Below, one piece after another: positions 6,430 to 45,614 of a stretch of 64,000 nucleotides of DNA. The stretch spans positions 1 through 64,000 of the forward strand of contig JARLHR010000041.1 in NCBI GenBank assembly GCA_031292145.1. Reading direction: 5' to 3'. The position numbers were made by a program, and so were the translations under genes. Under the pieces are notes generated by a model. It saw only the letters and a program-made list of their open reading frames with translations, searched no databases and had not been told where the DNA came from. How positions within the stretch are numbered: position 1 is the stretch's first letter; every line of letters begins with the position of its first letter. Source of the DNA: Clostridium sp. (lineage in GTDB: Bacteria > Bacillota > Clostridia > Clostridiales > Clostridiaceae).

Positions 6430-6626
6430 GCATTAGAAATAAGTAACATGTTGTGTGCAGCGTTTCATTAGGAATTTGGATGGCTGTGATTCTTAAACAG
6501 AAGTTGTTCCAAAAGGCTTGTTCAAATTACTTTTGAAGCAAGCCTTTTGGGTACAAATTCTGCTTTTAGAATCACCCATCTAAATTCCTTAGAAACCGAA
6601 ACACAGCATGTTACTTATTTCGGTAA
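6430..6626 (-). repeat. Family A hairpin element, copy A1
   Basis: An imperfect inverted repeat of ~195 bp filling the gap between cysK and the hemerythrin-like gene. Read on the minus strand it has the family foot ACCGAAAT, an internal loop of TTTCGGTTTCT facing CATT and AACGCTGCACA, and the near-apical module TTGTACCC, GGCTTGCTTC, short hairpin, GAACAAGCC, GGAACAA. The apical stem sequence differs from other copies but still pairs. The TATAGATATCC end seen on other copies is degenerate here (CTTACCGAAAT preceded by GATAT). Confidence 0.75.
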
Positions 6627-6645
6627 GATATCACCTAATTTTAGA

Positions 6646-7062
6646 TTACAACTTGTTTATCATTTTATATAATTCATTTTCTTCTTTATTTATTCTTATT
6701 TCTATTGATTTTAATATTTTCCTTGTTTCAGTAAGAAAGCTTTCAATACCTGCAGCTATAATTTTACTTTTTGTATTGAATTGATTTTTATAATCTGTAA
6801 ATATATCTGCAATCCCGCCCATTTCATCGATATAAGAATTTGCTAGATTTTTTAGAGTTTCGTTTGTTCCGTTAAGTAAATTAGGATACAAAAACTTATC
6901 TTCCGAACCTAAATGAATTTTTAATTTGCCAGCAAGTTTATTAATGTGGCTAGTTATATCTAAGAGATCTGCTTCAAGATTTTTTTCAGCTAATTTTACA
7001 TTTATATAATTAATTTCTTCAAAAATTCCTTTATGTTCTCTCATTAAGTTATCTATATTCAT
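6646..7062 (-). CDS. Hemerythrin/HHE-domain-like protein
   Basis: A 138-residue all-helical cytoplasmic protein matching the HHE cation-binding (hemerythrin) family. The first helix carries REHKGIFEE, the second H39 and the H-x3-E of IHLGSEDKFLYP, and the last EENELY. Hemerythrin-like proteins bind a di-iron centre used for O2, NO or iron handling. Two positions where the family normally has histidine look replaced (DEMGGIADIF in helix 3 and RINKEENELY in helix 4). Metal binding may thus be altered or lost. The ribosome site GAGGTG lies just ahead of the ATG. It is a single gene, divergent from the following alcohol dehydrogenase. Confidence 0.75.
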   Translation of the reverse strand: MNIDNLMREHKGIFEEINYINVKLAEKNLEADLLDITSHINKLAGKLKIHLGSEDKFLYPNLLNGTNETLKNLANSYIDEMGGIADIFTDYKNQFNTKSKIIAAGIESFLTETRKILKSIEIRINKEENELYKMINKL

Positions 7063-7306
7063 AAATTAACACCTCATTTTTATTATCTTTTGATTATAGT
7101 ATAAATGGTAATAATAAATAAGTACGTAACAATAGTTACAATGCTTAGTCATTCTAGAAAAATCAAGCATAAGTGATTTAATATGGATGAAGATTATATT
7201 ATATTTTGAAAGTTATCAAAATCAACTTCTTGAATTTGTTCAGTATGCACTAAAATATTGTTAGAAGGAAGCATAGAATATGGATTTTTAATATGGTACT
7301 ATTATT
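7063..7306. other. Divergent intergenic region, AT-rich
   Basis: The region between the hemerythrin-like gene and the alcohol dehydrogenase. It must hold the minus-strand promoter; TATACTATAAT-like sequence lies near 7098-7108 on the minus strand, but no good -35 is evident. I see no gene or repeat here. Confidence 0.4.
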
Positions 7307-7335
7307 TTGACAGAGATGTCTTTTTTTTTGATAAA
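7307..7335 (+). promoter_or_regulatory. Probable promoter of the iron alcohol dehydrogenase
   Basis: A consensus -35 TTGACA at 7307-7312 and GATAAA at 7330-7335 are separated by 17 bases. This gives a leader of ~75 bases. The -35 sits in a small dyad (GACAGAGATGTC). Confidence 0.55.
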
Positions 7336-7415
7336 GGCATTTTTATAGTTTCTAAGTAAAGTTATAAAAATGTTATAGAGTGATAATATTAAGTTGTTTT
7401 TAGGAGGAATTAAAA

Positions 7416-8546: not shown

Positions 8547-8558
8547 AATTAAGAATTT

Positions 8559-8800
8559 AGGCACAATCAAAAAAATAACAAGTCCATCTGCTAGAAAAGT
8601 TCTTATATGCAGAAAAGTTCCGTATTGCAGCATAGCTGCTCTTTTCATAAGTGCATAGCTGCTTTTTTCTAATGCGCCTATTTTCCATAATGCTACGTCA
8701 GCAGATTGACCTAATAGGCCCGCTATGAGGCCAATCTGATTCCTTGCCTTATGAAAAATAATCATAGCATTTTGGACTTGTTATTTTCTTTCATGTGCCT
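8559..8800. repeat. Family B inverted-repeat element, copy B1
   Basis: A 242-bp element bounded by ~27-bp terminal inverted repeats. The left end reads AGGCACAATC then AAATAACAAGTCC. The right end, reverse-complemented, reads AGGCACATGA then AAATAACAAGTCC; about 23 of 27 positions match. The interior holds GCATAGCTGCTCTTTT-like repeats, also found at 34955-35010 and in copy B2. No plausible coding content. Its hairpin-forming ends may act as the terminator for the dehydrogenase gene. Confidence 0.8.
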
Positions 8801-9080
8801 TATTTTGTGCACGATGCACTAAAATATTGTTATTAAAGATGATAGACTTATAAATCTTAATATGATAATATACATACAAGCAAATAAGTTATCGAAGTAA
8901 CAAGGAGAGTTTAGTGAAATAGATCTTAATTTTGAGAAATCAATGGTGAGGAAAAAATAAACTTAAGATTAAATATTATGCACACTGCACAAAAAAATGT
9001 TACTTATGGCATAGAAATTATAAAAGAATCATGATAATATTATTTTAAAATAAAACAAAATAATAATTTATATTGAATGC
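8801..9080. other. AT-rich intergenic stretch
   Basis: Beyond the B1 element I see no gene, RNA motif or strong promoter. It should hold the promoter for the ABC-transporter operon; several AT-rich -10-like hexamers exist, with none clearly paired to a -35. Confidence 0.35.
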
Positions 9081-12050: not shown

Positions 12051-13268
12051 ATGTCAATTTCGGTAAAAGATATACTTAAATTAGATTCCTTGAAAAAAAT
12101 AAAACTTGTAGGTGGAGAAGCAGGTTTAGAGAAGTATATAGAATGGATATATGTAGCGGAATGTTTTGAAAATCCATTAGAAGGAATTAAGTGGTTACAA
12201 GGCGGAGAAATAATTTTTATAACTGGTGTCGGAATTAAAGATAATGAAGAGATACTGTTAGAGTTAATAAGAGGAATAAATGAAAAAAATGGTTCAGGAC
12301 TTATAGTAAATGTTGGTCCATATATAAAAAGTATATCTGATGAAGCAATTAAACTAGCAGATAAGCTTGAAGTTCCATTATTCACACTGCCTTGGGAAGT
12401 AAAACTAGTTGAAGTTTCTAGAGATATTAGTAATGCTATAGTTTTATCACGTATAGAAGAAAATTCGCTTACTCACTTTTTAAGTAATATCTTATTTGGT
12501 GATGGAGAAATAGAAGGCGATGCGATACAAAAAGCAGCGTATTTTGGTTATAATTTAGCGGGGGATTGCTGTATATGCGTTATAGACATTGATGGCTTTG
12601 AAAGGTATTTAAAGCAAAAAAAATTAGAGGATGAAATGAGTATATCTAAGATTAAAATCACATTTAGAAAAATAGTGCAAGATATATTGGAAAAGCATGC
12701 ACTTAAAGTGCCTATAATCGATAAGGATGACGCAGTGATTTTTTTTATTAGATCAGAAGAAAATTGTATGAATAGATTAGACAAGGCATTAAAAGAAATT
12801 CAGGAAGTAATAAAAAAGCGTATGGATAGTCTTTCTGTTAGTGTGGGAATCGGAAATTCTTATAAGGATCTAAAGATGATGAAGCAGTCATTAAGCGAAG
12901 CAGAATTAGCGATTGATAGTGCAAAATGCCAAGGATTAGATGATACAATTACAAAGTATAAAGATATAGGTATTTATGGACTTCTTTTTAATGTAAAAAA
13001 TAGAACAGTGTTAGATAATTATTTAACAGAAGTTTTAGGACCAATAAGCAGCAGTGATAATAAAGATAATAATTTAATTGAAATATTAGAAATGTACTTA
13101 AATGAAAATTGTAATATTACAGTTACAGCAGAAAAACTATTTTTACATAGAAATACTCTTAAATATAAAATAAAAAAAATAGAGGAATTATTAAATTGTG
13201 ACTTACATAATTTTAATGATTGTATGAATGTAAAAATTGCATTGTATATTAATAAGGTTTTAAAATAA
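12051..13268 (+). CDS. PucR-family transcriptional regulator, copy 1
   Basis: A 405-residue DNA-binding regulator. The N-terminal PucR domain (about 1-130) starts MSISVKDILKLDSLKK. A middle GGDEF-like/CdaR region carries KRMDSLSVSVGIGNSYKDL. The C-terminal HTH_30 domain has LEMYLNENCNITVTAEKLFLHRNTLKYKIKKIEELL (shown in part; the HRNTLKYKIKKIE segment is typical). ATG 12051 is chosen over an upstream GTG at 12042; it follows AAAGGTGGGG and matches the start of the paralog at 13598. PucR-type proteins control purine or amino-acid catabolism in response to metabolites. Position between an amino-acid importer and a GABA-type aminotransferase suggests control of that pathway. Confidence 0.88.
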   Translation: MSISVKDILKLDSLKKIKLVGGEAGLEKYIEWIYVAECFENPLEGIKWLQGGEIIFITGVGIKDNEEILLELIRGINEKNGSGLIVNVGPYIKSISDEAIKLADKLEVPLFTLPWEVKLVEVSRDISNAIVLSRIEENSLTHFLSNILFGDGEIEGDAIQKAAYFGYNLAGDCCICVIDIDGFERYLKQKKLEDEMSISKIKITFRKIVQDILEKHALKVPIIDKDDAVIFFIRSEENCMNRLDKALKEIQEVIKKRMDSLSVSVGIGNSYKDLKMMKQSLSEAELAIDSAKCQGLDDTITKYKDIGIYGLLFNVKNRTVLDNYLTEVLGPISSSDNKDNNLIEILEMYLNENCNITVTAEKLFLHRNTLKYKIKKIEELLNCDLHNFNDCMNVKIALYINKVLK

Positions 13269-13271
13269 TAA

Positions 13272-13342
13272 ATGTGAACTTAGATTTAAGCAATAGCTTA
13301 CCAAAATAAGTAACATATTGTGTTCCGGTTTCTATTGTTTAA
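13272..13342 (+). repeat. Truncated family A element, copy A2
   Basis: Carries only the 5' half of the family: GTGAACTTAGATTTAAG, the foot TTACCAAAATAAGTAACA and the loop TTCCGGTTTCT. These match the reverse strand of copy A1. The pairing arm is missing, so it should not fold as a full element. Confidence 0.6.
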
Positions 13343-13597: not shown

Positions 13598-14818
13598 ATG
13601 TCAATTTTAGTGAAGGATATTTTAAAATTAAAATCTCTAGAAGAAATGAAATTAGTAGGAGGAAATATAGGCTTAGAAAAATGCATCGAATGGATATATG
13701 TATCAGAATGCCTTGAGGATCCGCTAGAAGGTATAAAGTGGCTACAGGGTGGGGAGATAGTGATCATTACTGGAGTTGGAATAAAGAGCGATATTAGTGT
13801 TTTAACAAAGCTTATAGAGGGAATCAGCGAAAAAAATGGAGCTGCACTAATAGTAAATGTGGGCAAATATATAAAAGAAATTCCAGAGCAAGCTATTGAA
13901 ATAGCTGACAAATTACAGATAGCTTTATTTACATTACCCTGGGAAGTAAGATTAATAGAGGTTTCAAAAGAAATAAGTAATGCTATTATATTAGCTCGTA
14001 TTGAAGAAAAATTTATGAATGATTTTTTGAATAATATATTATTTGGTCAAATGGACTTAGGGGTAAATATTAAAGAAAAAGCAAACTATTTTGGCTACAA
14101 TTTGCATGGAAAGTGTTGTATATGTATTATAGAAATTAATGGATTTAAAGAATTTCCAAAAACAAAAAATTTGTATGATGAAATGAGTATATCTAAAATT
14201 AAACTTACATTAAGGAAACTTGTACAAGATACATTAGAGAAATATTCATTAAAAGTACCAATTATAAATAATGATGATGAAATTATTTTTTTAAATAGAG
14301 CAGAAGAAAATTCTATGAATAGGCTAAATAAAGCACTTAAAGAAATTCAAGAAATAATTGAAAAACGACTGAGTGGAATTTCAGTAAATGTGGGAATTGG
14401 GAATGGATATGAAGATTTAAACTTAATGAAAGAATCTTTCAACGAGGCTAAAATGGTTATCGAGAGTTTAAAGTGTGAGGGTGGTAATCAAGTAATTAAA
14501 AAATATACTGATATAGGAATATATAGCTTAATATTTAGTGTTGATAATAAAAAAATATTAGAAAATTATTGTAAGCAAGTAATTGGGCCAATTATAGAAA
14601 AAAATAAGAAAAGCAAAGAAGTCAGCTCTATTCAAATATTAGATATGTATTTAAATGAGAATTGCAATCTTACTTTAGCAGCAGAAAAATTGTATTTGCA
14701 TCGAAATACACTTACATATCGTATAAAGAAGATAGAGCAATTATTAAATTGCAATCTGCACAATTTTGAAGATTGTCTCAGAATAAAAATGGCGCTTTAT
14801 ATTAGCAAAACTTTATAG
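13598..14818 (+). CDS. PucR-family transcriptional regulator, copy 2
   Basis: A 406-residue paralog of the gene at 12051, alike over its entire length (MSILVKDILKLKSLEEMKLVGGN against MSISVKDILKLDSLKKIKLVGGE; both end in an HTH_30 domain with LHRNTL). The two probably arose by tandem duplication. The ribosome site GGGGTGG is at 13588-13594. The stop codon TAG at 14816-14818 lies inside the first bases of a family A element. The next gene is the GABA-type aminotransferase, its likely target. Whether the two regulators form heterodimers or respond to different ligands cannot be told. Confidence 0.88.
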   Translation: MSILVKDILKLKSLEEMKLVGGNIGLEKCIEWIYVSECLEDPLEGIKWLQGGEIVIITGVGIKSDISVLTKLIEGISEKNGAALIVNVGKYIKEIPEQAIEIADKLQIALFTLPWEVRLIEVSKEISNAIILARIEEKFMNDFLNNILFGQMDLGVNIKEKANYFGYNLHGKCCICIIEINGFKEFPKTKNLYDEMSISKIKLTLRKLVQDTLEKYSLKVPIINNDDEIIFLNRAEENSMNRLNKALKEIQEIIEKRLSGISVNVGIGNGYEDLNLMKESFNEAKMVIESLKCEGGNQVIKKYTDIGIYSLIFSVDNKKILENYCKQVIGPIIEKNKKSKEVSSIQILDMYLNENCNLTLAAEKLYLHRNTLTYRIKKIEQLLNCNLHNFEDCLRIKMALYISKTL

Positions 14819-15154
14819 ATATTCAAACATTGACTTAGATTTATGTGGTAGTCTACCGAAATTCCATACATTTTTGTTCCACAGGACTATGAAATTTTCA
14901 CTGGAAGGTTCTAAGCATAAGGTTGTGCCCATTTCTGCATGCTCCAAATATAAAATTTTGACAAGCAGTAAATGGTACAACCAATAGATGAAACTCGACT
15001 CACTACGTTCCCTGAGTAAGCGATTCACACCAAATCATAGATTTGGGTTCTCTGCTTAAGAACCTTCACAGCTCAATTTCAAATGCCTGTTTCACAAAAA
15101 TGTATGGAATTTCTAGTATGGAAACACCTTCTAATTATAAATTGGATATCTATA
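14814..15154 (+). repeat. Family A hairpin element, copy A3, with nested insertion
   Basis: Starts TATAGATATTCAAA over the pucR2 stop codon and ends TTGGATATCTATA at 15142-15154. Foot GTCTACCGAAATTCC pairs with GGAATTTCTAGTATGG. The near-apical module has TTGTGCCC, GCATGCTCC, a short hairpin, TTGACAAGC and GGTACAACC. Compared with copies A4 and A6 there is an extra ~72 bp at about 14982-15055, which itself contains CCAAATCATAGATTTGG. The insertion interrupts the descending arm between ACAACC and TAAGAACCTTC. Confidence 0.85.
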
Positions 15155-15512: not shown

Positions 15513-16853
15513 ATGATAGAAGAATCAAATGTAAAATTAGTAACATCAATACCAGGACCTAAATCAAAGGAAATTTTTGAAGAAAGAAAAAAATATGTAG
15601 CTAATGGAGTATCTGTATCAACAGATATTGCTATTGCAGAAGCAAAGGGTGCTTTGATTAAAGATGTCGATGGTAATGTATTTTTAGATTTTGCAGGAGC
15701 AATCGGTGTTCAAAATGTAGGACATTGCGATGATGAAATAGTAAAAGCAATACAAGAACAAACAGCGAAATATATTCATCCAGGATATAACGTAGTAACT
15801 TATGAATCATATGGAGCTTTAGCAAAGAAATTGACAGAAATAACTGTTGGAGATTTTGAAAAGAAAGTTATGTTTGCAAACAGTGGGGCAGAAGCAGTAG
15901 AAAATGCTATTAAAATAGCTAGAACTTATACTAAGAAAACAGGTATTCTTTCCGCTACAGGTTCTTTCCATGGACGTACAAATATGACTATGTCAATAAC
16001 AAGTAAATATAAACCATATAAAAATGGTTTTGGGCCATTTGCACCAGAAACTTATAAATTTGATTATCCATATTCATATAGAGCACCACTTGGAGTTTCA
16101 GAAGAGGAATATGCAGATGAATGTCTTAATAAGTTAAAAGCTATGCTTAAAACTACACTTTCTCCAGACATGATAGCATGTTTAATAATTGAACCACTGC
16201 AAGGTGAAGGTGGATTTGTAGTACCATCTGCAAAATATATGCAAGAATTACAAAAGCTTTGTAATGAAAATAATATACTTCTTATAGTTGATGAAATACA
16301 AGCTGGATTTGCAAGAACTGGTAAGATGTTTGCTCATGAACATTATGGCATTGAGCCGGATATCGTTACATTATCAAAATCAATAGCTGCAGGAGTTCCA
16401 TTAAGTGCAGTAGTTGCTAAGAAGGAAATAATGGATTCTGCATGTGTAGGAGGAATTGGAGGAACTTACGCTGGAAGCCCTCTTGGATGCATCGCGGCAC
16501 TTAAAGTTATAGAAAAAATTGAAAAAGAAGATTTATGTGGTAAGTCAGTAAAGCTTGGAGAATATATTACTGGAAGACTTAACGAAATGAAAGAAAAATA
16601 CGAGGTTATAGGTGAAGTAAGAGGTCTTGGTTCTATGATAGGAATAGAACTTGTAAAAGATAGAACTACAAAAGAGCCAGCAGCAGATTTAGTTAAAGCT
16701 ATAATTAAAAAATGTTATGAAAAAGGAGTTATATTCTTAAATGCTGGATTACTTAGTAACGTAATTCGTTTCTTACCACCATTAGTAATGACAGATGAAC
16801 AAGTTAAATATGGAATGGATGTATTAGAAGAATCAATTAAGGAATGCATATAG
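15513..16853 (+). CDS. gabT: 4-aminobutyrate-type aminotransferase (class III)
   Basis: A 446-residue PLP enzyme that would move the amino group of GABA, or a similar omega-amino acid, to 2-oxoglutarate, giving succinate semialdehyde. Class III landmarks are NSGAEAVENAIKIAR and SFHGRT (PLP phosphate and ring stacking), the active-site aspartate in LLIVDEIQAGFARTG and the Schiff-base lysine in TLSKSIAAG (about K288). Length and the GGIGGTYAGSPLGC segment fit GabT rather than ornithine aminotransferase, but exact substrate needs testing. Ribosome site GAGGGGG. Two PucR regulators lie upstream. The stop TAG at 16851-16853 is embedded in the next repeat element. Confidence 0.88.
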   Translation: MIEESNVKLVTSIPGPKSKEIFEERKKYVANGVSVSTDIAIAEAKGALIKDVDGNVFLDFAGAIGVQNVGHCDDEIVKAIQEQTAKYIHPGYNVVTYESYGALAKKLTEITVGDFEKKVMFANSGAEAVENAIKIARTYTKKTGILSATGSFHGRTNMTMSITSKYKPYKNGFGPFAPETYKFDYPYSYRAPLGVSEEEYADECLNKLKAMLKTTLSPDMIACLIIEPLQGEGGFVVPSAKYMQELQKLCNENNILLIVDEIQAGFARTGKMFAHEHYGIEPDIVTLSKSIAAGVPLSAVVAKKEIMDSACVGGIGGTYAGSPLGCIAALKVIEKIEKEDLCGKSVKLGEYITGRLNEMKEKYEVIGEVRGLGSMIGIELVKDRTTKEPAADLVKAIIKKCYEKGVIFLNAGLLSNVIRFLPPLVMTDEQVKYGMDVLEESIKECI

Positions 16854-17108
16854 ATATCAAAATGTGAACTTAGACTTAAGTGGTGTCCTACCGAAATTCC
16901 ATACATTTTTGTTCCACAGAGCTATGAAATTTTCACTGGAAGGTTCTAAGCGCAAGGTTGTGCCCATTTCTGCATGCTCCAAATATAAAATTTAGACAAG
17001 CAGTAAATGGTACAACCTTGCACTAAGAACCTTCGCAGCTCAATTTCAAATGTCTGTTTCACAAAAATGTATGGAATTTCTAGTATGGAAATACACTCAA
17101 ATTATAAG
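16849..17108 (+). repeat. Family A hairpin element, copy A4
   Basis: Begins TATAGATATCAAAATG on the gabT stop codon. Arms CCTACCGAAATTCCATACA and TGTATGGAATTTCTAGTATGG pair. The near-apical part is GCGCAAGGTTGTGCCC to GGTACAACCTTGCAC, with the GCATGCTCC and AGACAAGC motifs. The right terminal inverted repeat is lost (ends near AAATTATAAGTT). In copy A6 the same stem reads GCACAAGG with CCTTGTAC, a paired change. Confidence 0.85.
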
Positions 17109-17579
17109 TTAAACTTATATGTTGCTTATTTCTACTTGAGCAATTCATTAATAATTTGTTAATGATTAAAAAATATAATATTTAAGGCAGATAGACTTAT
17201 TATTTTTTGGATTGTGCCTAAACTTATGAATTAATTCATGGGATCTATTAATTATTTATTATAGTTTATAGATTTCATGAATTTTATTTTATATGCAAAT
17301 TACATTAATAAAATCCAATATGAGTGTCGTTAGAAAACATATAAGGCGTATGAAAGAAAATAATATGGCCAAAACCATGATTATTTTTTATCAGGAAAGG
17401 AAGCGGATTGGTCTCTCGGCGAAAGCGAAAATTTGAAAAAGTTCATATTGTTTGAGTGGATTAATTAATGATGCTATAATTATGTTAGATAATAATAATT
17501 TTTTTGTTGAATATTATTATAGATTAAAATCAGAAAGCAAAGTAACTATCTTATATTATAATTAGGAGAGACATAATTT
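17109..17579. other. Intergenic region with two family B terminal fragments
   Basis: 17197-17219 matches a B right end (GACTTATTATTTTTTGGATTGTGCCT begins just before; shown as positions only). 17344-17392 matches a B left end (AGGCGTATGAAAGAAAATAAT), followed by a CCATGATTATTTTTTATC arm that folds back on it. The rest is AT-rich. The promoter for the regulator at 17580 should lie in the last ~100 bases, but I could not fix its hexamers. Confidence 0.5.
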
Positions 17580-18710: not shown

Positions 18711-18998
18711 TATAGATATCCAAACTAAGATTTAGACTTATGTGGTAACTCACCGAAAGGACAGGTACTCTGTTGTTTCGGTTACTGAGAATAAGTTGAG
18801 GATTTCTACCATCAGAAGTTGCACCATTTCAGCATGCTCCCGAGGCAAGCTCGTGACAAGCAATAAATGGAACAACTTCTGATGAAGAAATACCTGCAAC
18901 ATATTCTCTAATGTAACGCTGCACAAAAGAGTACCTGTCCTTTCTGGTATGGAATATATTTCAAAGTATAAATCTAATCTATAATTTGGATATCTATA
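18711..18998 (+). repeat. Family A hairpin element, copy A5 (complete termini)
   Basis: 288 bp with clean 14-bp ends: TATAGATATCCAAA at 18711 and TTTGGATATCTATA to 18998. Long stem: AAAGGACAGGTACTCT with AGAGTACCTGTCCTTT. Loop TTTCGGTTACT faces AACGCTGCACA and CATTAG. Near the tip lie CATCAGAAGTTG, CACC, GCATGCTCC, the hairpin CGAG-CTCG, TGACAAGC and AACAACTTCTGATG. It sits between the response regulator and its kinase gene. AGATG occurs on both outer sides and might be a target duplication. Confidence 0.88.
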
Positions 18999-22000: not shown

Positions 22001-24838
22001 CGTGCTCAATATAGGGCAAGTATATTATTTGCTTATGGATTCATGGGACATGCATGGAACGAGTCATGGCAGAATTTAAATCAATGGTTTGAAAAAACCA
22101 TGGAAGAGGCAATAAAATATGGAGATCATTATCAAATTGGTTTAGCTGGTACCTTCATGTACGCTTTTAAAGCTGATATGAATTTGAAGTTACTAATAGA
22201 AAAAACTATGAAACAAGTTCCTTTAATTATTCAGACAAATAACAAATATGGATATTATATGTTATTTTTATTTATTCATAGGTGGCTCAATTATATTGGT
22301 CTTACTGATGAACAGTTTACTATAAATGTATCACAAGAAACCTATGAGTTAAATGGCAGTATTGGAGTTGTATGCAGTGAGGAAGAATGCTTAGAGTATA
22401 TGCAACAAATTAACTCTTTATCTGGAATAGGCGTCTACTACAAGGAAAAGATGTATATTCATTATATTTATGATGATTATGCAGGAGCAATGAAATATTT
22501 AAAAGAGTCGGATAAATATATGAAGCAGCATTCAGGTACTCCATATATAGTAGAATGTAGGATATGTAATTTTTTGGTTTTAGCTGCAAACATACCAGAA
22601 ATGGGAGCGAAAGAAGCTAGCAAGGCCCTTCGAAGATTAAAGAGAGAATATAAATATGTAAAATCTTGGGCAAAGCATTGCCCGATTAATTTCTTGCATT
22701 TACAATATATGCTAGAGGCTGAGCTTAAACGTATTGACGGAAAAACATATATGGCAGCCGAATTGTATGAATTGGCTACACAAACTGCCAGGAGGAATGG
22801 ATTTATTCGGGATGAAGCTCTAGCTAATGAGTTGGCAGCCAAAATGTTTTTAGCTGCTGGTATGAATAAACAAGCTGGATTTTATATGAGGGAACCTTTC
22901 AAGGGATACAAAGTGTGGGGAGCAGATGCTAAGATAAGCCATATGTCAGAGAAATATGGATATTTGCTTAAGACTTCAGAAGGTAGCGGGAAAGCATTGA
23001 AAGCTGATGGAATGGTTGGATTAAAAGATATAGACTTGATGTCTATAATGAATGCCTACCGTGCTGTATCTAAGGAAGTGCAGCTTACTGATCTATTACC
23101 GCAGATAATGAAAATAGTGGTGGAAAATTCGGGAGCACAGAAAGCATATATACTTTTGAAATATGAACATGGGTGGAATATAGAAGCAGAGTGGTTACAA
23201 GGAGAAAGTGAAATTAAAGTACTACACTCTGTATCTTTGGAAGAAGCACAGGGGTTATTGGCGGCTTCTATTATAAATTTTTGTATACGCACTGGAGAAT
23301 ATGTTGTGCTAGGTGATGCTGCAAGACAAGGTAACTTTTGCAAAGATCCATATATTCAGAAAAATCAAACTAAGTCTTTGTTATGTATGCCAATTACAAA
23401 TCAAGGTGTGTTGATTGGGATTTTATATATAGAAAATAATTTATCAGCGGATGTTTTTACTGATAATCATGTTGAGGTGCTGCAATTGCTGACAGCTCAA
23501 TTTTCAATTTCAATTAAAAATGTTCAATTATTCTCGAACCTGCTTGACACTACAGAGGAACTACATCGTTCTATGGAGGAATCCTTACGTTCTGAGATTG
23601 CTTTTTTACAAGCTCAGATTAAGCCTCATTTTCTTTACAATGCCATAAATACTATATCAGCTTTTTCATTAGATGATCCTAAGATGACGAGGGAGTTACT
23701 AGCAAATCTTAGCCAGTACTTGAGGGGCAGCTTTGATTTTAAAAACAGAGATAAGCTTGTAACTTTGAATAAAGAGCTAGAATTGGTGGAAGCTTATTTG
23801 TTTATTGAGAAAGCACGATTTGGAAAAAGACTGCAGATTGTTTATGATATTGAAGATAATATAAATTGCATGCTGCCACCACTTGTTATTCAACCATTAG
23901 TGGAAAATTCGGTACAACATGGACTAGCAGGTCGAAAACATGGTGGAACAGTAAAAATTATTGTTTACAGTGAAAAAAGTTTTATTGTACTAAGTGTTGA
24001 AGATGATGGTGTAGGGATTCCAGAATCCCTTTATGGAAAGTTGCTATCTGACAGAGAAAGTAAGAGTGTTGCTTTGAAAAATATAAATCAGAGACTGATA
24101 AAGATATATGGTCATGGTCTGGAAATAGGAGGAAGAGCAGGTGGAGGAACTAAAATGACAATACGTATTCCAACGGAAAACACAGTTATACCTCCAGAGC
24201 CTACTATTTCACTGGAAAATGTATATTTATATAATAACCTTAAGGAATTAGTTGATGGAAGAACACTTGAACTTAGAGAAGAAATTAACGAACGTAAAAA
24301 AGCGGAGAATTTATTATCAGAAATGGCTAACCAGGATCACCTTACAAATCTCCCAAACAGAAGAAGGTTAGAGGGTATACTTGAACAGTCTATTATAACG
24401 GCTAAGGAGAATAAAAACAAAATATGTGTATTATTTGTCGACTTGGATGGATTCAAGGCAATCAATGATAAATATGGTCATGATAAGGGAGATGTTGTTT
24501 TAGTTGCTGTCGCTAAAAGACTTTCAGAAGCTGTAAGAAGCTGTGATACGGTTTCAAGAATGGGCGGGGATGAATTTGTAATGATTTTGAAAAATGTTAC
24601 CAGTATATCTGAAATAGAAGAAATTTGCCACGAAATTATTACAGCAGTAGGAAAACCAATCTTACTTGATGAAAAGAAAACTGAAGGAACAGTTACAACC
24701 AGTATAGGTATATCAATAGCACCATATGATGGTGAAACTTCTGCGGAATTAATAAGTAATGCAGATAAAGCAATGTATGTTGCAAAAAAGAATGGTAAAA
24801 ATCAGTTTGTTTTTTACTCTGGGAAATACAATTTATAA
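19040..24838 (+). CDS. Giant multidomain sensor: kinase-like, AAA ATPase, GAF, histidine kinase, GGDEF
   Basis: 1932 residues, cytoplasmic, no membrane segment seen. Domain order: eukaryotic-type Ser/Thr kinase-like domain (about 1-270); AAA/STAND ATPase (about 300-600) with Walker A GYSGVGKTS near 337 and Walker B LTVFLDDLQW near 467; a helical repeat region to ~1300; GAF (about 1345-1490); LytS-type histidine kinase with QIKPHFLYNAINTI near 1524 and N box PLVENSVQHG near 1622; a short coiled linker; and GGDEF (from ~1765) with intact MGGDEF and an inhibitory RSCD site five residues before it. The catalytic loop reads IHKEINPGIF instead of HxDxxxxN and the metal motif is DLG, so kinase activity is doubtful. 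ATG 19040 follows CGGAGG; the upstream in-frame ATG 19022 overlaps that site. The kinase-ATPase-histidine kinase fusion is a known architecture; the added GGDEF is less usual. Confidence 0.92.
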   Translation: MDTIHIQGYENIETLYESRDAIVCRARNKQGEISILKTMKDNYPSEEQLAQLEYEYNMLNQLDGRGIIHVRELIKHYKGHIIVMENIEGMSPLNVPVFESIRNGNKQLSTHKLMLILKIFIKMTEVIEKLHDKNLIHKEINPGIFLVKSDFSQVRILDLGLTKKINNSRREFYNSDGIEVLMPYISPEQTGRTGRFIDYRTDFYSLGVSMYELIAGRRPFTTNNMLEMIHSHIAKTPIAPHIVNPDIPKPVSAIIMKLMAKESEQRYQTAQGIVYDFRKCLEALGSSGIVGDFEVGMNDISNKFQIPQKLYGRDKERETLKQIYEQVAKGGSHMLLVGGYSGVGKTSIIQEIYRPVAELGGFFASGKAEQLQINTPYFVFTQVAKELIRILLQEPDLILEQWKGRLLKALNDNGRLIMDLVPELGAIIGIQPKVEELEPTENRNRFLNTFGNFFKVFADKTHPLTVFLDDLQWCDLASIKFMEYLLALEDMESFIVVGCYRDNEVMEEHPLYNSLNEFRKSDKATTFTVKPLEENNVADILVDTVHCHEVKAQSLAKIIYKKTQGNPFFVRSLLLHLYTSDFIRYSEEMHQWEWDDNEIKNIAISDNIVDFMINKILKLPPKTQNLLKVAALVGTTFNLEILADVENIDALEAAVGLKEAVDSEIIIPESDYYDIASEIRLNDVNIDFKFTHDRVQQACAALIQEEAQKQLHLKIGKSMKQNIPVNMLKDHAMNIVCHLNEGLDEIESLEERFETSRLNLWACQKAKAASSFKLSLKYVSNGIQVLPDNAWKQDYEFTFEITKIYAECAYLNNEYALAEKQIEILMEYAKTSIDQAEIRLMQSIIYRFLGQFDKVIEYGTLGLRLLGTRMSSKPGWHYIIKEMIIVKMRLWKKDTEILLNAPPIKNDKIKLAIRIMGELNSISYNAGNINLFLLSTLKSLNLTLSYGNSREAASIYCGYAVLLSVLGDLQGSYKFNKLALKLVESEERAQYRASILFAYGFMGHAWNESWQNLNQWFEKTMEEAIKYGDHYQIGLAGTFMYAFKADMNLKLLIEKTMKQVPLIIQTNNKYGYYMLFLFIHRWLNYIGLTDEQFTINVSQETYELNGSIGVVCSEEECLEYMQQINSLSGIGVYYKEKMYIHYIYDDYAGAMKYLKESDKYMKQHSGTPYIVECRICNFLVLAANIPEMGAKEASKALRRLKREYKYVKSWAKHCPINFLHLQYMLEAELKRIDGKTYMAAELYELATQTARRNGFIRDEALANELAAKMFLAAGMNKQAGFYMREPFKGYKVWGADAKISHMSEKYGYLLKTSEGSGKALKADGMVGLKDIDLMSIMNAYRAVSKEVQLTDLLPQIMKIVVENSGAQKAYILLKYEHGWNIEAEWLQGESEIKVLHSVSLEEAQGLLAASIINFCIRTGEYVVLGDAARQGNFCKDPYIQKNQTKSLLCMPITNQGVLIGILYIENNLSADVFTDNHVEVLQLLTAQFSISIKNVQLFSNLLDTTEELHRSMEESLRSEIAFLQAQIKPHFLYNAINTISAFSLDDPKMTRELLANLSQYLRGSFDFKNRDKLVTLNKELELVEAYLFIEKARFGKRLQIVYDIEDNINCMLPPLVIQPLVENSVQHGLAGRKHGGTVKIIVYSEKSFIVLSVEDDGVGIPESLYGKLLSDRESKSVALKNINQRLIKIYGHGLEIGGRAGGGTKMTIRIPTENTVIPPEPTISLENVYLYNNLKELVDGRTLELREEINERKKAENLLSEMANQDHLTNLPNRRRLEGILEQSIITAKENKNKICVLFVDLDGFKAINDKYGHDKGDVVLVAVAKRLSEAVRSCDTVSRMGGDEFVMILKNVTSISEIEEICHEIITAVGKPILLDEKKTEGTVTTSIGISIAPYDGETSAELISNADKAMYVAKKNGKNQFVFYSGKYNL

Positions 24839-25000
24839 AAAATTTTTTATTTGGATTAAGAGACTATCAAAAGAAAGGCTTGTAAATTTGGCGAAAACGC
24901 TGAATTTACAAGCCTTTTAGATATTTTTGGAATTTTTTGCCTAATGCCTTTTGTTCAAATTCGGTTCAGATTCGATGTTTATAATAATAGATAGGGGGTG
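24839..25000 (+). repeat. Surface-gene flanking element, copy E1
   Basis: First of three ~165-bp near copies (others at 27391 and 30331). Order within each: an A/T run, a terminator hairpin (24877-24918 here), a TTTTGCCTAATGCCTTTTGTTCAAATTCGG-like stretch, then GGTTCAGATTCGATGTTTATAAT and a G run. This copy ends the giant-kinase transcript and precedes the first surface-protein gene, so it is probably terminator plus promoter/operator. Confidence 0.85.
24877..24918 (+). terminator. Terminator within element E1
   Basis: GGCTTGTAAATT pairs with AATTTACAAGCC, with an inner GCG-AAAA-CGC hairpin, then TTTT. It lies 39 bases after the kinase stop codon. Confidence 0.88.
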
Positions 25001-27390: not shown

Positions 27391-27560
27391 TTATAAAAAA
27401 ATTTTTTTGTTTGAATTAAGAGAATGTTAAAAGAAAAGCTTGTAAATTTGGTGGAAATGCTGAATTTACAAGCCTTTTGGCTGTTTTTGGCATTTTGCCC
27501 AATGTCTTTTGTTCAAATTCGGTTCAGATTCGATGTTTATAATTATATATGGGGGGGATA
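27391..27560 (+). repeat. Surface-gene flanking element, copy E2
   Basis: Near copy of 24839-25000, including the terminator (27437-27478) and the ATTCGGTTCAGATTCGATG-TTTATAAT stretch, followed by GGGGGGG. It separates the two surface-protein genes. Confidence 0.85.
27437..27478 (+). terminator. Terminator within element E2
   Basis: AGCTTGTAAATT pairs with AATTTACAAGCC, with a small inner stem, followed by TTTTGG. Confidence 0.8.
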
Positions 27561-30330: not shown

Positions 30331-30500
30331 AAATAAAATTTTAAAAAAAATTTTTTTGTTTAAATCAAGAGAATGTTAAAAGAAAAGCTTGTAAATTTGG
30401 TGGAAACGCTGAATTTACAAGATTTTTAGCTATTTATGACCTTTTTGCCTAATACCTTTTGTTCAAATTCGGTTTAGATTAGATGTTTATAATTATGTAA
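30331..30500 (+). repeat. Surface-gene flanking element, copy E3
   Basis: Third near copy. The hairpin arm ends CAAGATTTTTAG rather than CAAGCC, so the stem is shorter. The TTCGGTTTAGATTAGATG-TTTATAAT stretch has diverged at a few bases and the G run is lost. It precedes no surface-protein gene; the next possible reading frame is a 25-codon peptide at 30581. Confidence 0.82.
30387..30427 (+). terminator. Terminator within element E3
   Basis: CTTGTAAATT pairs with AATTTACAAG with an inner GGAAAC loop, followed by ATTTTTAG. It ends the second surface-protein transcript. Confidence 0.75.
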
Positions 30501-30580
30501 TATACAAAATATGATAAATATTTTAGAGAGACATTTTTTAATTAGGAAATTAAATTTATATCAGAAAGTTGGTAGAATAC

Positions 30581-33809: not shown

Positions 33810-34793
33810 ATGAAAATGAAAAAAACTTTAGCATTTATTATGACAGCAGCTTTAACTGTTGGAACAATGGCTGGATGTAGCCAAGCTACAATTAATTATT
33901 CACAAGAGATTTCCAATACAGCTAAATGGGAAGCATCAACATCAAATATCCAAGGCACAATTAATATTGATGTAAAAGGTGTGAAAGAACAAATAAATAT
34001 ATCTGCTGATGGATACAAGGCAAATGATAATTCTTATGTAGATATGACATTTACAGATCCAACAGGTAAGGTTAATATTCCAGAACTCAAGGCATATTCC
34101 GATGGAACAACGAATTATATAAACAAAGGTTTTTATCAAGGAATATACGCTTTAACTGGACAAACTGCTCCAGCAGCATTAGCTAACATAAAAGAAGACT
34201 ATATAGGAATTAATACTGCATCTACAGGCATTGATGTAAATAAATTAAAGGCATTAGCAACTCAACCAGATTCAATGGTTGAACTAGGTAAATTGATATT
34301 TGGAGAAAATACTGATTTTGATATACCTTTTGTTCAAAATGGAAGAGAATATACAGTAAATCTTGATGCAGATCAAACTGTAGAGTTAGGAGCAAAGGCT
34401 TTAAAAGCAGCAGGTAACAATTTAGATAATATTAATAATACTTTCAAATTAGGATTACCAGCTGAAAGTATTACTCAAATGAAAGCAACAGTTAATAGTG
34501 CAGATTTTGATAAAGGATTAGCTGATGCTAAGACAGCATTAACTGGAACAACTATTACTTCAAAAGAAGTGTTTACAGATACTAGCTATACTGCAGATTT
34601 CAATATGAATTTAAAAATTAAAGATGCTGGAAGTATTTTATTAACTATGAAAACAACAGATACTAAAAGTGAGGTTAAAGAAATAACTTTTCCAACTAGC
34701 ACGCTTAAAGTTACACAAGAAGAATTCAATAAAATGTTAGTTCCAACAGATACAACTGTATCATCAACTACTACAAATGTTATAGCTAAATAA
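33810..34793 (+). CDS. Lipoprotein of unknown function
   Basis: 327 residues. The signal peptide MKMKKTLAFIMTAALTVGTMAGC ends in a classic lipobox (MAGC), so the mature protein should be anchored on the outer face of the membrane. The body is rich in Thr, Asp, Asn and short beta-like segments (IQGTINIDVKG, YVDMTFTDPTG, SILLTMKTTDTK). No catalytic motif or family I can name was seen; the layout vaguely recalls LolA/LppX-like lipid-binding folds but that is only an impression. It has its own gap and terminator, so it is a single-gene unit. Ribosome site AGGGGGAAAG. Confidence 0.7.
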   Translation: MKMKKTLAFIMTAALTVGTMAGCSQATINYSQEISNTAKWEASTSNIQGTINIDVKGVKEQINISADGYKANDNSYVDMTFTDPTGKVNIPELKAYSDGTTNYINKGFYQGIYALTGQTAPAALANIKEDYIGINTASTGIDVNKLKALATQPDSMVELGKLIFGENTDFDIPFVQNGREYTVNLDADQTVELGAKALKAAGNNLDNINNTFKLGLPAESITQMKATVNSADFDKGLADAKTALTGTTITSKEVFTDTSYTADFNMNLKIKDAGSILLTMKTTDTKSEVKEITFPTSTLKVTQEEFNKMLVPTDTTVSSTTTNVIAK

Positions 34794-37373: not shown

Positions 37374-37659
37374 TATAGATATCCAATTTAATAAATAGAT
37401 TTATAATTAGTAGGTGTTTCCATATTGGAAATTTCATACATTTTTGTGAAACAGGCATTTGAAATTGAGCTGTGAAGGTTCTTAGTACAAGGTTGTACCA
37501 TTTACTGCTTGTCAAAATTTTATATTTGGATCATGCAGAAATGGGCACAACCTTGTGCTTAGAACCTTCCAGTGAAAATTTCATAGTCCTGTGGAACAAA
37601 AATGTATGGAATTTCGATAGATTACCACATAAGTCTAAGTTCATGCTTGGATATCTATA
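37374..37659 (-). repeat. Family A hairpin element, copy A6 (complete, inside an operon)
   Basis: 286 bp with ends TATAGATATCCAA (37374) and TTGGATATCTATA (to 37659). In reverse orientation it closely matches A3/A4: TCTATCGAAATTCCATACA foot, TTGTGCCCATTTCTGC, GATCC, a small hairpin, TTGACAAGC and GGTACAACC. It separates aepX from the decarboxylase gene by 332 bases where no terminator is expected. A reading frame inside it is only the repeat's translation. Confidence 0.88.
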
Positions 37660-38842: not shown

Positions 38843-39979
38843 ATGGATATTAAAAGAAATATATTGTTAAATCCAGGTCCTGCAACAACTGCAGATACAG
38901 TAAAATTTGCTCAAGTAGTACCTGATATTTGCCCAAGAGAAAAGGAATTTGGAGATGTGATGGAGTTTGTATCAAAAGAGCTTACTAATTTTGTGGGTTA
39001 TAATGATAAATATACCACCATATTGTTTGGCGGGTCAGGAACGGCTGCAGTTGAAGCAATTTTAAGTTCAGTAGTAGATAATCAAATCATTTTAATAATT
39101 AATAATGGGGCTTATGGCAAGAGGATGTGTGAGATAGCAGAGATATATAACTTAAATTATATAGAATTTAAAAGTTCTCCAATAGAAGCAATAAATTTAA
39201 ATGATTTAGAAGAAGTAATTAAAAAACATAATAATGAAGAAAGTAAAATAAGTAATTGCGGAGTTATAAGTCATTTAGCAATAGTTCATCATGAAACAAC
39301 AACAGGTATATTAAATAATATAAAATTAATAGGAGAAATTTGCGATAGATATAGGATAGAGATGATAGTTGATGCAATGAGCTCATTTGCAGGAATGCCA
39401 ATAGATATGCATGATATGAATATAAAATACTTAGCTTCAAGTTCAAATAAATGTATACAAGGAATGGCAGGAATAAGTTTTGCAATAGCAAATAAAGAAT
39501 CTTTACAAAAAACTAAGGATATTAAACCAAGAAATCTTTATCTTAATTTATATAAGCAATATATATATTTCAAAGAAAATTACCAGATGAGATTTACTCC
39601 ACCAGTGCAGGTTCTTTATGCTTTAAAGCAAGCTATTATAGAAGCTAAAGAGGAAACAATCGAAAAAAGACATGCGCGATATAAAGATTGCTGTAAAGTT
39701 TTATGGGATGGTTTAGAACAACTAAAATTAAAAAAATTAGTTGAAGATGAAGCAGCATCCATGCTTTTGACTTCAATTATCGAGCCACAGGTTGAAAAAT
39801 ATAGCTTTAATGATATGCATGATTTTTTATATAATAAAGGGTTTACAATATATCCTGGTAAAGTTTCTTCTGAAAATACATTTAGAGTAGCAAACATAGG
39901 AGAAATTTATCCAGAAAATATGATTAAATTTATAGAATTATTGAAGGAATATTTTATAAGTATTGAGCACATAAAATAA
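38843..39979 (+). CDS. phnW: 2-aminoethylphosphonate-pyruvate transaminase
   Basis: A 378-residue PLP aminotransferase (class V). In this cluster it would run toward synthesis, turning phosphonoacetaldehyde into 2-aminoethylphosphonate. Motifs are LLNPGPATTADTVK at the N-terminus, FGGSGTAAVEA (PLP phosphate), VDAMSSFAGMP (PLP aspartate) and the Schiff-base lysine in ASSSNKCIQGMAG. ATG 38843 is six bases after GGAGG; the ATG at 38822 lies upstream of that site and is rejected. The stop codon TAA is the first element of a family B copy (TAAGGCAC). Confidence 0.93.
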   Translation: MDIKRNILLNPGPATTADTVKFAQVVPDICPREKEFGDVMEFVSKELTNFVGYNDKYTTILFGGSGTAAVEAILSSVVDNQIILIINNGAYGKRMCEIAEIYNLNYIEFKSSPIEAINLNDLEEVIKKHNNEESKISNCGVISHLAIVHHETTTGILNNIKLIGEICDRYRIEMIVDAMSSFAGMPIDMHDMNIKYLASSSNKCIQGMAGISFAIANKESLQKTKDIKPRNLYLNLYKQYIYFKENYQMRFTPPVQVLYALKQAIIEAKEETIEKRHARYKDCCKVLWDGLEQLKLKKLVEDEAASMLLTSIIEPQVEKYSFNDMHDFLYNKGFTIYPGKVSSENTFRVANIGEIYPENMIKFIELLKEYFISIEHIK

Positions 39980-40126
39980 GGCACAATCAAAAAAATAACA
40001 AGTCCATCTATGAGAACAAGCTGTTTCCTTGCTTGATGAAAAATAAACACCTTTAAAAAGAGCAGCTATGCTGCATATAGGAACATTCCATGGCATTTTG
40101 GATTTGTTATTTTCTTTCATGTGCCT
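39979..40126. repeat. Family B inverted-repeat element, copy B2
   Basis: 148 bp. The left end AGGCACAATC...AATAACAAGTCC is identical to B1's left end, and the right end is GGATTTGTTATTTTC...ATGTGCCT. The interior has AAAGAGCAGCTATGCTGC, shared with B1. It fills the gap between the convergent phnW and zinc-transporter genes and may act as a bidirectional terminator. Confidence 0.82.
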
Positions 40127-40143
40127 TATTCAAATTTTAATTT

Positions 40144-43542: not shown

Positions 43543-43701
43543 AGGCATATGAAAGAAAATAATGAGTCCATGATGCAATGTATATTTCTTGTCAGACGAG
43601 GAAGCATGTTTGCCTCATAGTGGGCTATTAGGGAAACATACTGACGAAGTATGACGAGAAATAGACTAGCATGCTGACTTATTATTTTTTTGAATATGCC
43701 T
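43543..43701. repeat. Family B element, copy B3, between dltA and dltC
   Basis: 159 bp with ends AGGCATATGAAAGAAAATAA and TTATTTTTTTGAATATGCCT. Interior: GCAATGTATATTTCTTGTCAG ... CATACTGACGAAGTATGACG, partly palindromic and unlike the B1/B2 interior but similar in layout to B4. It starts eight bases after the dltA stop. Confidence 0.82.
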
Positions 43702-43726
43702 TATATAAAGATTAAAGGAGTATGTT

Positions 43727-43963: not shown

Positions 43964-43966
43964 ACT

Positions 43967-44197
43967 TATAGTTATGAATATAACTCACCGAAAGGGAAGG
44001 TACTCTGTTGTTTCGGTTACTGAGAATAAGTTTAGGATTTCTACCATCAGAAGTTGCACCATTTCTGCATGCCCCCCAGACAAGCTGGTGACAAGCAAAA
44101 ATGGAACAACTTCTGATGAAGAAATACCTGAAACTTATTCTCTGATGTAACACTGCACAAAAGAGTACCTTCCCTTTCTGGTATGACATATATTTAC
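43967..44197 (+). repeat. Family A hairpin element, copy A7
   Basis: Closest to A5. Stem AAAGGGAAGGTACTCT with AGAGTACCTTCCCTTT, where A5 has AAAGGACAGG with CCTGTCCTTT: two compensated changes. Tip hairpin CCAG-CTGG replaces CGAG-CTCG. Shared loops: TTTCGGTTACT, AACACTGCACA, GCACC, GCATGCCCC, TGACAAGC. The left terminus (TATAGTTATGAATA) is degenerate and the right one abuts copy A8. Confidence 0.85.
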
Positions 44198-44431
44198 ACT
44201 AGAAATCAAATACATTTGTGTGTAGCAGGCATTTGAAAATTTCGATGCTAAAAGCACTTAATTGGAGCTTGTTCAACATTAGCTTGTCACACTAAAAGTG
44301 GGAGCAAGCTAATGTTGATACAAGCTCCCATTTAGTGCTTTCAGCGAAATTTTCATAGTCCTGCGTAACACAAATGTATTTGATTTCGGCAGACTATCGC
44401 ATAAGTCTAGAATATGCTTTGGTTATCTATA
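44198..44431 (-). repeat. Family A hairpin element, copy A8, adjoining A7
   Basis: Right end TTTGGTTATCTATA (to 44431). In minus orientation: ATCAAATACATTTGTG arms, CAGGACTATGAAAATTT facing GCATTTGAAAATTT, then AGCTTGTATCAACATTAGCTTGCTCC with the CACT-AGTG tip hairpin, TGACAAGCTAATGTTGAACAAGCT. The helices differ wholly from A3-A7 but the loop motifs are the same. Confidence 0.85.
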
Positions 44432-44452
44432 CAAAAATGCCTGTAAAGTTTG

Positions 44453-44863
44453 CTAATCAGAGAGGATAAATTTTTCAAAAATCCAATGCTGATTACTATC
44501 CTTTTTGAAGCTGCCCTTAATATAAGTACTTTTATGAGGAGCTTTTTTAGAAAGACCAGAAGCCTCTACAATTGCAGTGTCTTCATCACAATAAACCAAA
44601 GACATTTTTTGAACTCTTAGTAGTTTATTTTCGGATGAAAACCCAGATGTGAAATTATATTCAACAGCAAATCCAAGATTTTTAGAGTTAGTATATACAT
44701 ACATATTATTAGATATAAAAAATGAAGTGATAATTATAAGTCCTAAGGAAATTGTTAAAGATAACATAAAATTACGTTTTGATTTTGCTATAATTCGCCT
44801 ATGAAGCTTTCGTTTCTTTTTATAGACAAAAGAGCCTAGTTCGATGGTGGCATTGTTTATCAT
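44453..44863 (-). CDS. Small membrane-anchored protein of unknown function
   Basis: 136 residues. A basic N-terminal segment (KKKRKLHRRIIAKSKR), one transmembrane helix at about 33-52 (LSLTISLGLIIITSFFI) and a ~80-residue probably extracytoplasmic domain ending WIFEKFILSD. The start ATG at 44863 is preceded by AAAGGAG on the minus strand, so the ten-residue longer frame starting at 44893 is rejected. No family recognised; the ectodomain has NTF2/YpeB-like mixed alpha-beta character only by impression. It stands alone, convergent with the plus-strand dlt genes. Confidence 0.65.
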   Translation of the reverse strand: MINNATIELGSFVYKKKRKLHRRIIAKSKRNFMLSLTISLGLIIITSFFISNNMYVYTNSKNLGFAVEYNFTSGFSSENKLLRVQKMSLVYCDEDTAIVEASGLSKKAPHKSTYIKGSFKKDSNQHWIFEKFILSD

Positions 44864-45304
44864 AAATGTAAATCTCCTTTTCTTAATATTCAAATTCTAT
44901 TCTACAAGGATCAATTTATAAAAGAATATTACCATAATTTAACAAGTTGTTAAATGAAAAAAGTATGACAAAGTAAAGGTAAAACCATGATAATATGAGT
45001 AAATTCTAATTTAGTGAAAGTACTAGAATATAGATTAATGATGAAGAATGAATAATGAAAGATTAAGGTGGAAGTTCTTTTAGAATTTCTATAATAAATA
45101 TAAAGATTACGAAATTATGAGGTAATTTCAACCTAAATCGTTCATCATTCACCATTAATTATTTATTAAAAGTGGGATAATCACTTTTCTATGGTTATAA
45201 AATGTCTTTTTTGATATAATAATAGTTATAAAATAAATAATTTCCAATTGAGGAAAGTTATTTGCTAAGAATTTAAATATAATATAATTGAAATTTGTTA
45301 AAAC
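44864..45304. other. Intergenic region with a dyad repeat
   Basis: 45034-45168 holds ATTAATGATGAAGAATGAATAA and the facing TTCATCATTCACCATTAAT, similar to the dyad before gabT (15400-15495), with a central GGTGGAAGTTC...GGTAATTTCAACC. No gene is supported here; possible short frames on both strands are AT-rich and lack ribosome sites. Confidence 0.5.
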
Positions 45305-45614
45305 TATAGATAAGCAATTTGAACATATGACTTGTCTGCAAAATATGTATATAAATTTACTAGACTTTAATGTGGTATCTCTACTAGAAATTAGAAGTAT
45401 TTTTGTGAAGAAAGCATTTGAAAATGAGCTGTTAAAGGTTCTTAGTTGTAGGTTGTTCCAATTTAGCTTGTCAAACTGAAAGTTGGAGCAAGCTAAATTG
45501 GACACAACCTGCAACTTAGAACCTTCAGCGATATTTTCATAGTCTTTTGGAATAAAAATATTTCTAATTTCTTAGACTACTACATAAGTCTAAGTTCACA
45601 TTTGGGTATCTATA
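45305..45614 (-). repeat. Family A hairpin element, copy A9
   Basis: Possible left end TATAGATAAGCAA at 45305; right end TTTGGGTATCTATA to 45614. In minus orientation it has GCAGGTTGTGTCC, AATTTAGCTTGCTCC, tip hairpin AACT-AGTT, TGACAAGCTAAATT, GGAACAACCT. Arms carry GACTATGAAAATAT facing GCATTTGAAAATGAG. Related to A8 in the lower stem, with different upper helices. Confidence 0.82.

Follow-up and report, generated by a model that had tools for sequence, protein, structure and literature searches.

The 64,000-nucleotide stretch of Clostridium sp. DNA analyzed here (contig JARLHR010000041.1, positions 1 to 64,000; hereafter the window) carries eight nearly complete copies and one truncated copy of a dispersed hairpin. 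The hairpin was found to form the inner part of a non-coding element of about 290 bp, bounded by the terminal inverted repeats (TIRs) TATAGATAYCCAAA and TTTGGATATCTATA. The element is short, TIR-bearing, non-coding and dispersed, as miniature inverted-repeat transposable elements (MITEs) are. We hold, with moderate confidence, that it is a MITE-like element whose hairpin core of ~185-190 nt acts as folded DNA and whose cores have been exchanged between shells. The family itself is real, abundant and, as far as sampled, limited to one genus. A sequence-only reading of the window had reported the nine copies, all of which were recovered in place (the truncated one at 13261-13334); it covered the inner part alone and included neither the TIRs nor the genome-wide copy number nor the location of copies at the 3′ ends of genes.

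Architecture, covariation and spread of the hairpin

Both TIRs were recognised in 38 of the 86 copies examined, when up to 3 mismatches were allowed over the 13 positions of an end. The distance from TIR to TIR was 274-341 bp in 36 of these 38 elements, and 359 and 400 bp in the other two. The junctions are TA-rich, and adjoining elements often have a TATA in common there; TA is the likely target, to the extent that junctions alone can tell.

The hairpin of ~185-190 nt stands on a GAAA/TTTC foot, usually preceded by ACC and followed by TAG; core lengths were 184-191 nt in the G008 genome, where 20 of 21 copies made up the core set. From the foot upward, the stem is interrupted near TTGT or TGT, then by CTA facing AATG, and then by the A·A mismatch TTCT-A/A-AGAA, with variants between copies. 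Above these lie a 2x1 loop, TTGT-nn-CC/GG-n-ACAA, and, under a short tip, the apical loop CTTG-CTCC/TGA-CAAG, both of which also occur in variant forms. All eight duplexes of the window have the GAAA.../...TTTC foot and an identical series of internal loops, and the common architecture proposed from the letters alone is thereby confirmed. The tip stems that had been listed (AAAT, CGAG, CCAG, CACT and AACT) are all present; copy 6430 has a longer tip (TTCAAA/TTTGAA), which turns its near-apical module into CTTC/GAA, and in copy 43967 CCCC replaces CTCC. Outside the window, several TIR-to-TIR derivatives lack the apex or the whole hairpin (L035:1908-2026, L085:1327-1450, L116:2078-2203, L236:2164-2292 and L243:2326-2479), as expected of palindrome-driven deletion.

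To quantify pairing, the apical part was aligned by sequence only (MAFFT) in A1, a set of 53 apices from the source genome whose rows were preselected for folding. Motif and fold filters passed 104 copies, 60 of which were left after near-duplicate removal; A1 comprises 52 of these and the window apex 44245-44346, while copies with inserts or with broken or odd arms were left out (L023, L029, L031, L032, L058, L082, L117 and window 14904). RNAalifold predicted 30 pairs on A1, 21 of them changed on both sides. Of 1590 cells, 96.0% were paired; shuffling lowered this share to 76.9%, and sliding the partner column by 1-3 positions lowered it to 31-47%. The covariation score was 0.512, against 0.164 for the shuffles, none of which reached it (0 of 500), and at most 0.123 for the slid columns; the claim that the stems change in sequence and keep their pairing is thus borne out. 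When 108 distinct, unfiltered apices were added to the A1 columns, 2969 of 3209 cells (92.5%) were Watson-Crick, and 20 of the 30 pairs displayed at least two Watson-Crick types, each in at least two copies. Such variation was seen at 23 of the 30 pairs in other Clostridium genomes, in an alignment fitted to the model (A2; 150 of 210 matches, reduced to 102 places by dropping weaker overlaps and to 77 distinct rows).

The unpaired positions between these variable helices are conserved. At the A·A mismatch, A occupies each side in 52 of the 53 A1 rows, and in 106 and 104 of the 108 unfiltered apices. In genomes G005, G021 and G022, different helices surround the same mismatch (loop 4) and a CTCC-like/GA apical loop. 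The 2x1 loop (loop 5) is kept in G021; its altered form in G005 and G022 counts against the folded-DNA reading. Overall, the data support pairing that is maintained around conserved loops.

R1, a covariance model built on the 97 apical positions, gave at least 150 matches in the source genome at E 7.5e-9 or better. In DNA searches, the 6430 type occupied at least 40 places in this genome, the window copy included, in the same orientation and at 79-100% identity; the 16849 and 18711 types each retrieved dozens of relatives there among the best 40 candidates scored. Several contigs of the assembly (C46, C153, C250, C276, C138 and C140 among them) end inside or at a hairpin, and the copy number of this genome is probably underestimated for that reason. 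Some Clostridium genomes carry from dozens to more than 100 copies.

Two multi-genome searches, run with stricter filters under which weak matches are lost, delimited the family. Among 59 genomes, the element was detected in 11 of 36 from Clostridium (two of them with one or two matches only) and in 0 of 23 others; a sample of the class yielded it in 5 of 391 genomes and 1 of 222 genera. Among the matches listed by a pattern scan were Clostridium chromiireducens, C. beijerinckii HUN142, Clostridium sp. LS and a Bacillota metagenome-assembled genome (MAG), and eight further single matches in that listing, elsewhere, resemble chance. No earlier description of such a clostridial element was found among the titles and abstract openings listed from open-licence literature. 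Neither of the outcomes that would have refuted the sequence-only reading, stems without covariation or an evident match to an element already known, was encountered.

Wobble counts and position at gene 3′ ends

The sequence-only reading had likened the hairpin either to a structured RNA or to a DNA hairpin recognised by its structure; the wobble counts disfavour the first half of this statement, and the second fits better. An RNA helix should tolerate G·U far more than A·C. In four subfamily alignments (44, 38, 21 and 47 copies), with pairs predicted while wobble was disallowed, rare pairings numbered 76 for G·T and 87 for A·C, together with 605 alternative Watson-Crick cells and 128 other mismatches. 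A1 contained 16 G·T and 31 A·C cells, or 16 and 21 when one ill-aligned pair is set aside. As a control, tRNA stems of the same genome were scored at fixed positions and gave 33 G·U and 2 A·C cells in 26 tRNAs (30 of 48 matches were taken, 27 were distinct, and 442 cells at 17 per tRNA correspond to the 26 counted). The ratio of 76:87 differs from the 33:2 of the tRNAs at a Fisher p of 4e-8. Moreover, among the 319 cells with a double change, 171 belong to the transversion type, for which no wobble step is possible. The covarying helices expected of a structured RNA are present, and the tolerance of G·U over A·C is absent on the strand read. Because of this missing wobble preference and the transversion-type double changes, pairing seems to be kept as DNA, firmly when set against an RNA of the read strand and less firmly when set against one of the opposite strand.

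Double changes without a wobble step, transversions included, are also what one-step templated correction gives, in which one arm serves as the template for the other during replication or mismatch repair (quasipalindrome correction) and no recogniser takes part. We consider such a passive palindrome quite improbable: correction should erase the A·A mismatch, yet the mismatch is kept in nearly all copies and, between different helices, in other species.

The opposite strand requires separate treatment, as some of the counts go against the folded-DNA reading. The A·C cells become wobble pairs when that strand is read, and A·C exceeds G·T both in other genomes (72 vs 30) and in the 108 unfiltered apices (105 vs 35, or 68 vs 35 without the ill-aligned pair). 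An RNA of the opposite strand would benefit from these excesses, but its ratios also depart from those of the tRNA stems, with p values of 2e-6 (87:76), 0.005 (72:30, other genomes) and 0.01 (105:35, unfiltered). The A·C excess in the apices is concentrated in six columns, each with at least four A·C rows and the ill-aligned pair among them. Across the 108 apices, G·T occurs in 19 columns and A·C likewise in 19; where a column has fewer than four rows of this kind, the counts are even, at 31 G·T and 24 A·C cells.

The placement of the element was analyzed on 157 copies of the source genome, kept from 208 BLAST pieces, with simple open frames as gene calls, so that the numbers are approximate. 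Eight copies lay inside frames of at least 100 amino acids, 70 in co-directional gaps, 53 in convergent and 2 in divergent gaps, and 24 at locus edges. Counted by gap, those with an element were tandem in 52 cases, convergent in 43 and divergent in none, as compared with 76, 14 and 14 for the gaps without one in the same loci. The median distance from stop codon to element was 2 bp (176 gene ends, 102 of them within 30 bp or overlapping); for gene starts near elements it was 161.5 (n = 74). At 13 of the 69 gene ends near a recognised 5′ element end, the TIR's own TAG serves as the stop codon, and at 0 of 28 near the element's 3′ end is the stop derived from the TIR. Within co-directional gaps, 51 of 70 copies are oriented in the sense of the genes (p 1.7e-4). 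A tie to one particular gene family was rejected, as the neighbours of the window copies belong to unrelated families (27 window proteins scanned).

This sense bias toward the upstream gene is equally expected from a function in mRNA, and it weighs against the folded-DNA reading to that extent. Together with the short distance to the neighbouring stop codon, the covariation and the conserved internal loops, it would suit a structured RNA that either affects the stability or RNase III processing of mRNAs from their 3′ untranslated regions or exists as a small RNA of its own, perhaps read from the opposite strand. The usual sense strand shows no G·U preference, however, and the 64-kb window gave no Rfam 15 match at gathering score, in line with the statement that the hairpin is not a named RNA class. 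We regard a structured RNA as an unlikely alternative.

Hairpin cores and their shells

Ordinary transposition leaves flanks alike along with cores. This was examined in the source genome on the 128 of the 157 copies with a recognised core, in pairs that are not independent of each other. For 494 pairs with cores 85-94% alike, the likeness of the two flanks was 0.65 and 0.64-0.68, as compared with 0.65 and 0.63 for random pairs; for 102 pairs with cores at least 94% alike, it rose to 0.77 and 0.74 vs 0.65 and 0.63. In G008, cores were at least 95% alike in 93 of 190 pairs, with flanks at 0.74 and 0.83, over a baseline of 0.66 and 0.64 in the 83 pairs with cores less than 80% alike and of 0.55 for shuffled 5′ flanks. 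When copies are aligned, the change in likeness falls near the hairpin foot. Across 42 source-genome copies of the 6430 type, profiled on rows with a core length of 186-191 only, mean identity on the 5′ side was 0.95 over the initial 10 nt of the core and dropped to 0.78 and 0.54 in two successive 5-nt bins outward from it; on the 3′ side it fell from 0.81 to 0.64 and 0.54 past the core.

One gene 3′ end is common to the source genome, C. chromiireducens and the Bacillota MAG (L013, L177 and L169), and in all three the element follows the same stop codon. The source genome carries a 6430-type hairpin there and the other two carry a different type, a small chance being left for two independent insertions. 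Mixed copies were also observed: L069 combines the lower stem of one type with the apex of another, and L117 has the arms of two types. As cores are mostly more alike than shells and the same gene end holds different cores, hairpins seem to have been exchanged between copies, which fits better than slow decay alone.

Several observations count against this exchange and against recognition of the hairpin. Flanks follow the core better in the 16849/37374 type (0.75-0.88 in many pairs), which supplies many of the pairs with cores at least 94% alike, and the 3′ flank in G008 tracks the core in some pairs, up to 0.99. The step at the foot is clear in the 6430 type only, weaker in the 16849/37374 and 45305 types, and nearly absent in the 18711 type. 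It could also be that flanks just change more quickly than a core under constraint, though the stems differ between types. Flank comparison recovered no clean empty site, which leaves target duplication and the movement of the core as a unit unproven; the single near-empty site, in G008, has altered surroundings. Finally, the searches turned up no protein that recognises the hairpin, and none of the 27 window proteins examined for this was a candidate mobiliser or binder.

Part of this pattern is what an ordinary MITE would leave, one in which a DDE transposase recognises the TIRs only, the hairpin is ballast and the types reflect bursts of transposition. The TIRs themselves and the TATA common to adjacent copies agree with it, as does the 16849 type, which matches over nearly the whole element at 90-94% and whose flanks follow the cores better than in other types. 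In those other types the flanks track the cores partly or not at all, and cores remain well paired in shells with decayed TIRs, as in window copy 6430. A search of the source genome found no DDE_3 (IS630-type) transposase, other DDE families not having been searched; an IS630-type mobiliser in this genome was rejected on this result. TIR sites were also located by pattern, and part of them were fetched and read for hairpins and spacing, with open frames listed for 18 loci; no transposon was seen between TIRs in the fetched loci of the source genome and five relatives, although the frames were not searched against families. On balance, an ordinary MITE appears improbable as the full explanation.

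According to the explanation that we favour, a MITE-like element with a DNA hairpin and exchangeable cores, the hairpin would work as folded DNA, whether in single-stranded form at the replication fork or after extrusion from duplex DNA. By analogy with other folded-DNA systems, we infer that a trans-acting protein may read its unpaired bases, i.e., the A·A mismatch, the CTCC/TGA loop and TTGT-nn-CC/GG-n-ACAA. Extruded hairpins might provoke recombination between copies and so lead to the replacement of whole cores in old insertion shells, and such replacement would let hairpin types sweep through the genome as paired units. Elements would be expected to persist where their hairpins are least harmful, right after stop codons. 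It is doubtful, but conceivable, that the hairpin core is itself mobile, as a single-stranded DNA cassette of ~185-190 nt that homes into older hairpin sites, replaces the resident, and is cut and joined at the foot by a recombinase reading the unpaired bases; the TIR shells would then be mere landing places.

Copies in the window and relation to known systems

The copies in the window range from full elements to remnants. Three run from TIR to TIR: 14814-15154 on the plus strand (341 bp, lengthened by a secondary insert at ~14983-15056), 18711-18998, also on the plus strand (288 bp, 6 bp past the stop of a response-regulator gene), and 45305-45614 on the minus strand (310 bp, with TIRs and hairpin duplex). 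Another full element, of 286 bp, lies on the minus strand at 37374-37659, opposite to its flanking co-directional genes, which encode PEP mutase and TPP-enzyme domains. The plus-strand element at 16849-17119 (core 16893-17080) has a 5′ TIR and no recognised 3′ TIR, its 3′ end being approximate. At 43967-44195, a plus-strand element with partial, approximate ends (hairpin core 43990-44178) is adjoined by a copy in the opposite orientation at 44196-44431 on the minus strand (core 44202-44387, low end approximate). In the copy referred to as 6430, the 6430-type core occupies 6436-6621 on the minus strand within a decayed shell in which no TIRs were recognised. The truncated copy at 13261-13334 (plus strand) retains only the 5′ flank and part of the 5′ arm, at 76% to the 6430 type. 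A TIR provides the TAG stop of a PucR-family gene (13598-14818) at element 14814, and likewise the stop codon of an aminotransferase gene (15513-16853) at element 16849.

The secondary insert of ~70-80 bp (GAAACTCGACTCAC...CTTA, with two small inverted repeats) was found at window 14983-15056 and in L031, L032, L058, L082 and L177. It occupies the A·A mismatch loop of the hairpin or a place next to it, in one arm or the other, as though targeting this loop. The window also contains other repeats: a separate inverted-repeat element at 8554-8805 and 39975-40130, with ends like AATAAGGCACAATCAAAAAAATAACAAGTCCA and TGGAYTTGTTATTTTCTTTCATGTGCCTTATT; intergenic arrays of 7-bp units (AGTTAAG, AGTGACA) reported at a 14-bp spacing (52601-52672, 56660-56778 and 58657-58770); a tandem repeat with a 60-bp unit at 1-300; and a stretch of ~165 bp that recurs 3′ of three long genes, of which two contain choline-binding repeats (24834-24998, 27394-27556 and 30343-30506). 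An open frame at 33810-34793 (327 aa) has no Pfam or NCBIfam match.

Among known systems, bacterial MITEs such as RUP, NEMIS and Nezha are described as dispersed, non-coding, TIR-bearing sequences of 70-300 bp with strong secondary structure (PMC3733652). The clostridial element resembles them in size, TIRs, lack of coding capacity, dispersal and folding, and differs in its conserved internal loops, its covarying stems and cores that are decoupled from the shell in most types.

Repetitive extragenic palindromes (REPs) and bacterial interspersed mosaic elements (BIMEs) are presented in the same source as occurring in many copies, near genes, with termini that provide a TAG stop (PMC3733652). 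The TnpA-REP protein of E. coli, as summarised in its report, needs an unpaired bulge in the folded single-stranded REP, and its activity is abolished when a regular stem is restored (PMC8266576). In view of this requirement, conserved stem mismatches are a known mark of folded-DNA recognition. The clostridial element is thus similar to REP/BIME sequences and their REP-associated tyrosine transposases (RAYTs) in its high copy number, gene proximity, TAG-providing ends and unpaired bases in folded DNA. Unlike REPs, which are palindromes of 20-40 bp with a GTAG or CGTC tag, it has a hairpin of ~185-190 nt placed within a TIR element, and the short tagged palindrome was not found in it. Matches to Y1 transposases in 29 genomes fell in 8 of 11 element-bearing genomes, the source-genome fragment included, and in 10 of 18 element-free ones. 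None was detected in the element-rich genomes G008, G021 and G034, and the source genome has only a broken fragment of 42 residues; a mobiliser of the RAYT/IS200 type was rejected on its absence from the three element-rich genomes.

In integron attC sites, unpaired bases are conserved and stems are variable, and the clostridial hairpin shares this pattern. In attC sites, a recombinase is reported to recognise hairpins of folded DNA (PMC11641012, PMC3053210), a further likeness. Unlike attC sites, the clostridial copies have no cassette arrays seen around them, and an integron integrase was rejected as the mobiliser, since none of the nine genomes searched had one above the cut-off (best 91 of 265 bits). 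Fungal mitochondria contain mobile DNA in the form of double-hairpin elements, which also combine variable stems with conserved loops; their size, genome and host differ from those of the clostridial element. We class the latter as structured DNA of the MITE/REP kind with apparently exchangeable cores; by the tests made, it belongs to neither the REP/RAYT nor the integron systems.

As the wobble counts caution, strong covariation by itself is no proof of a structured RNA: in a covariance screen, this family would come out as a new class of RNA. In clostridia related to C. beijerinckii, the family offers dozens to at least 150 natural replicates per genome of one structured DNA whose conserved unpaired bases are known, in some genomes with no evident RAYT and, in nine of the nine tested, with no integron integrase. 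It permits direct tests of how a long palindrome is kept up, exchanged and recognised.

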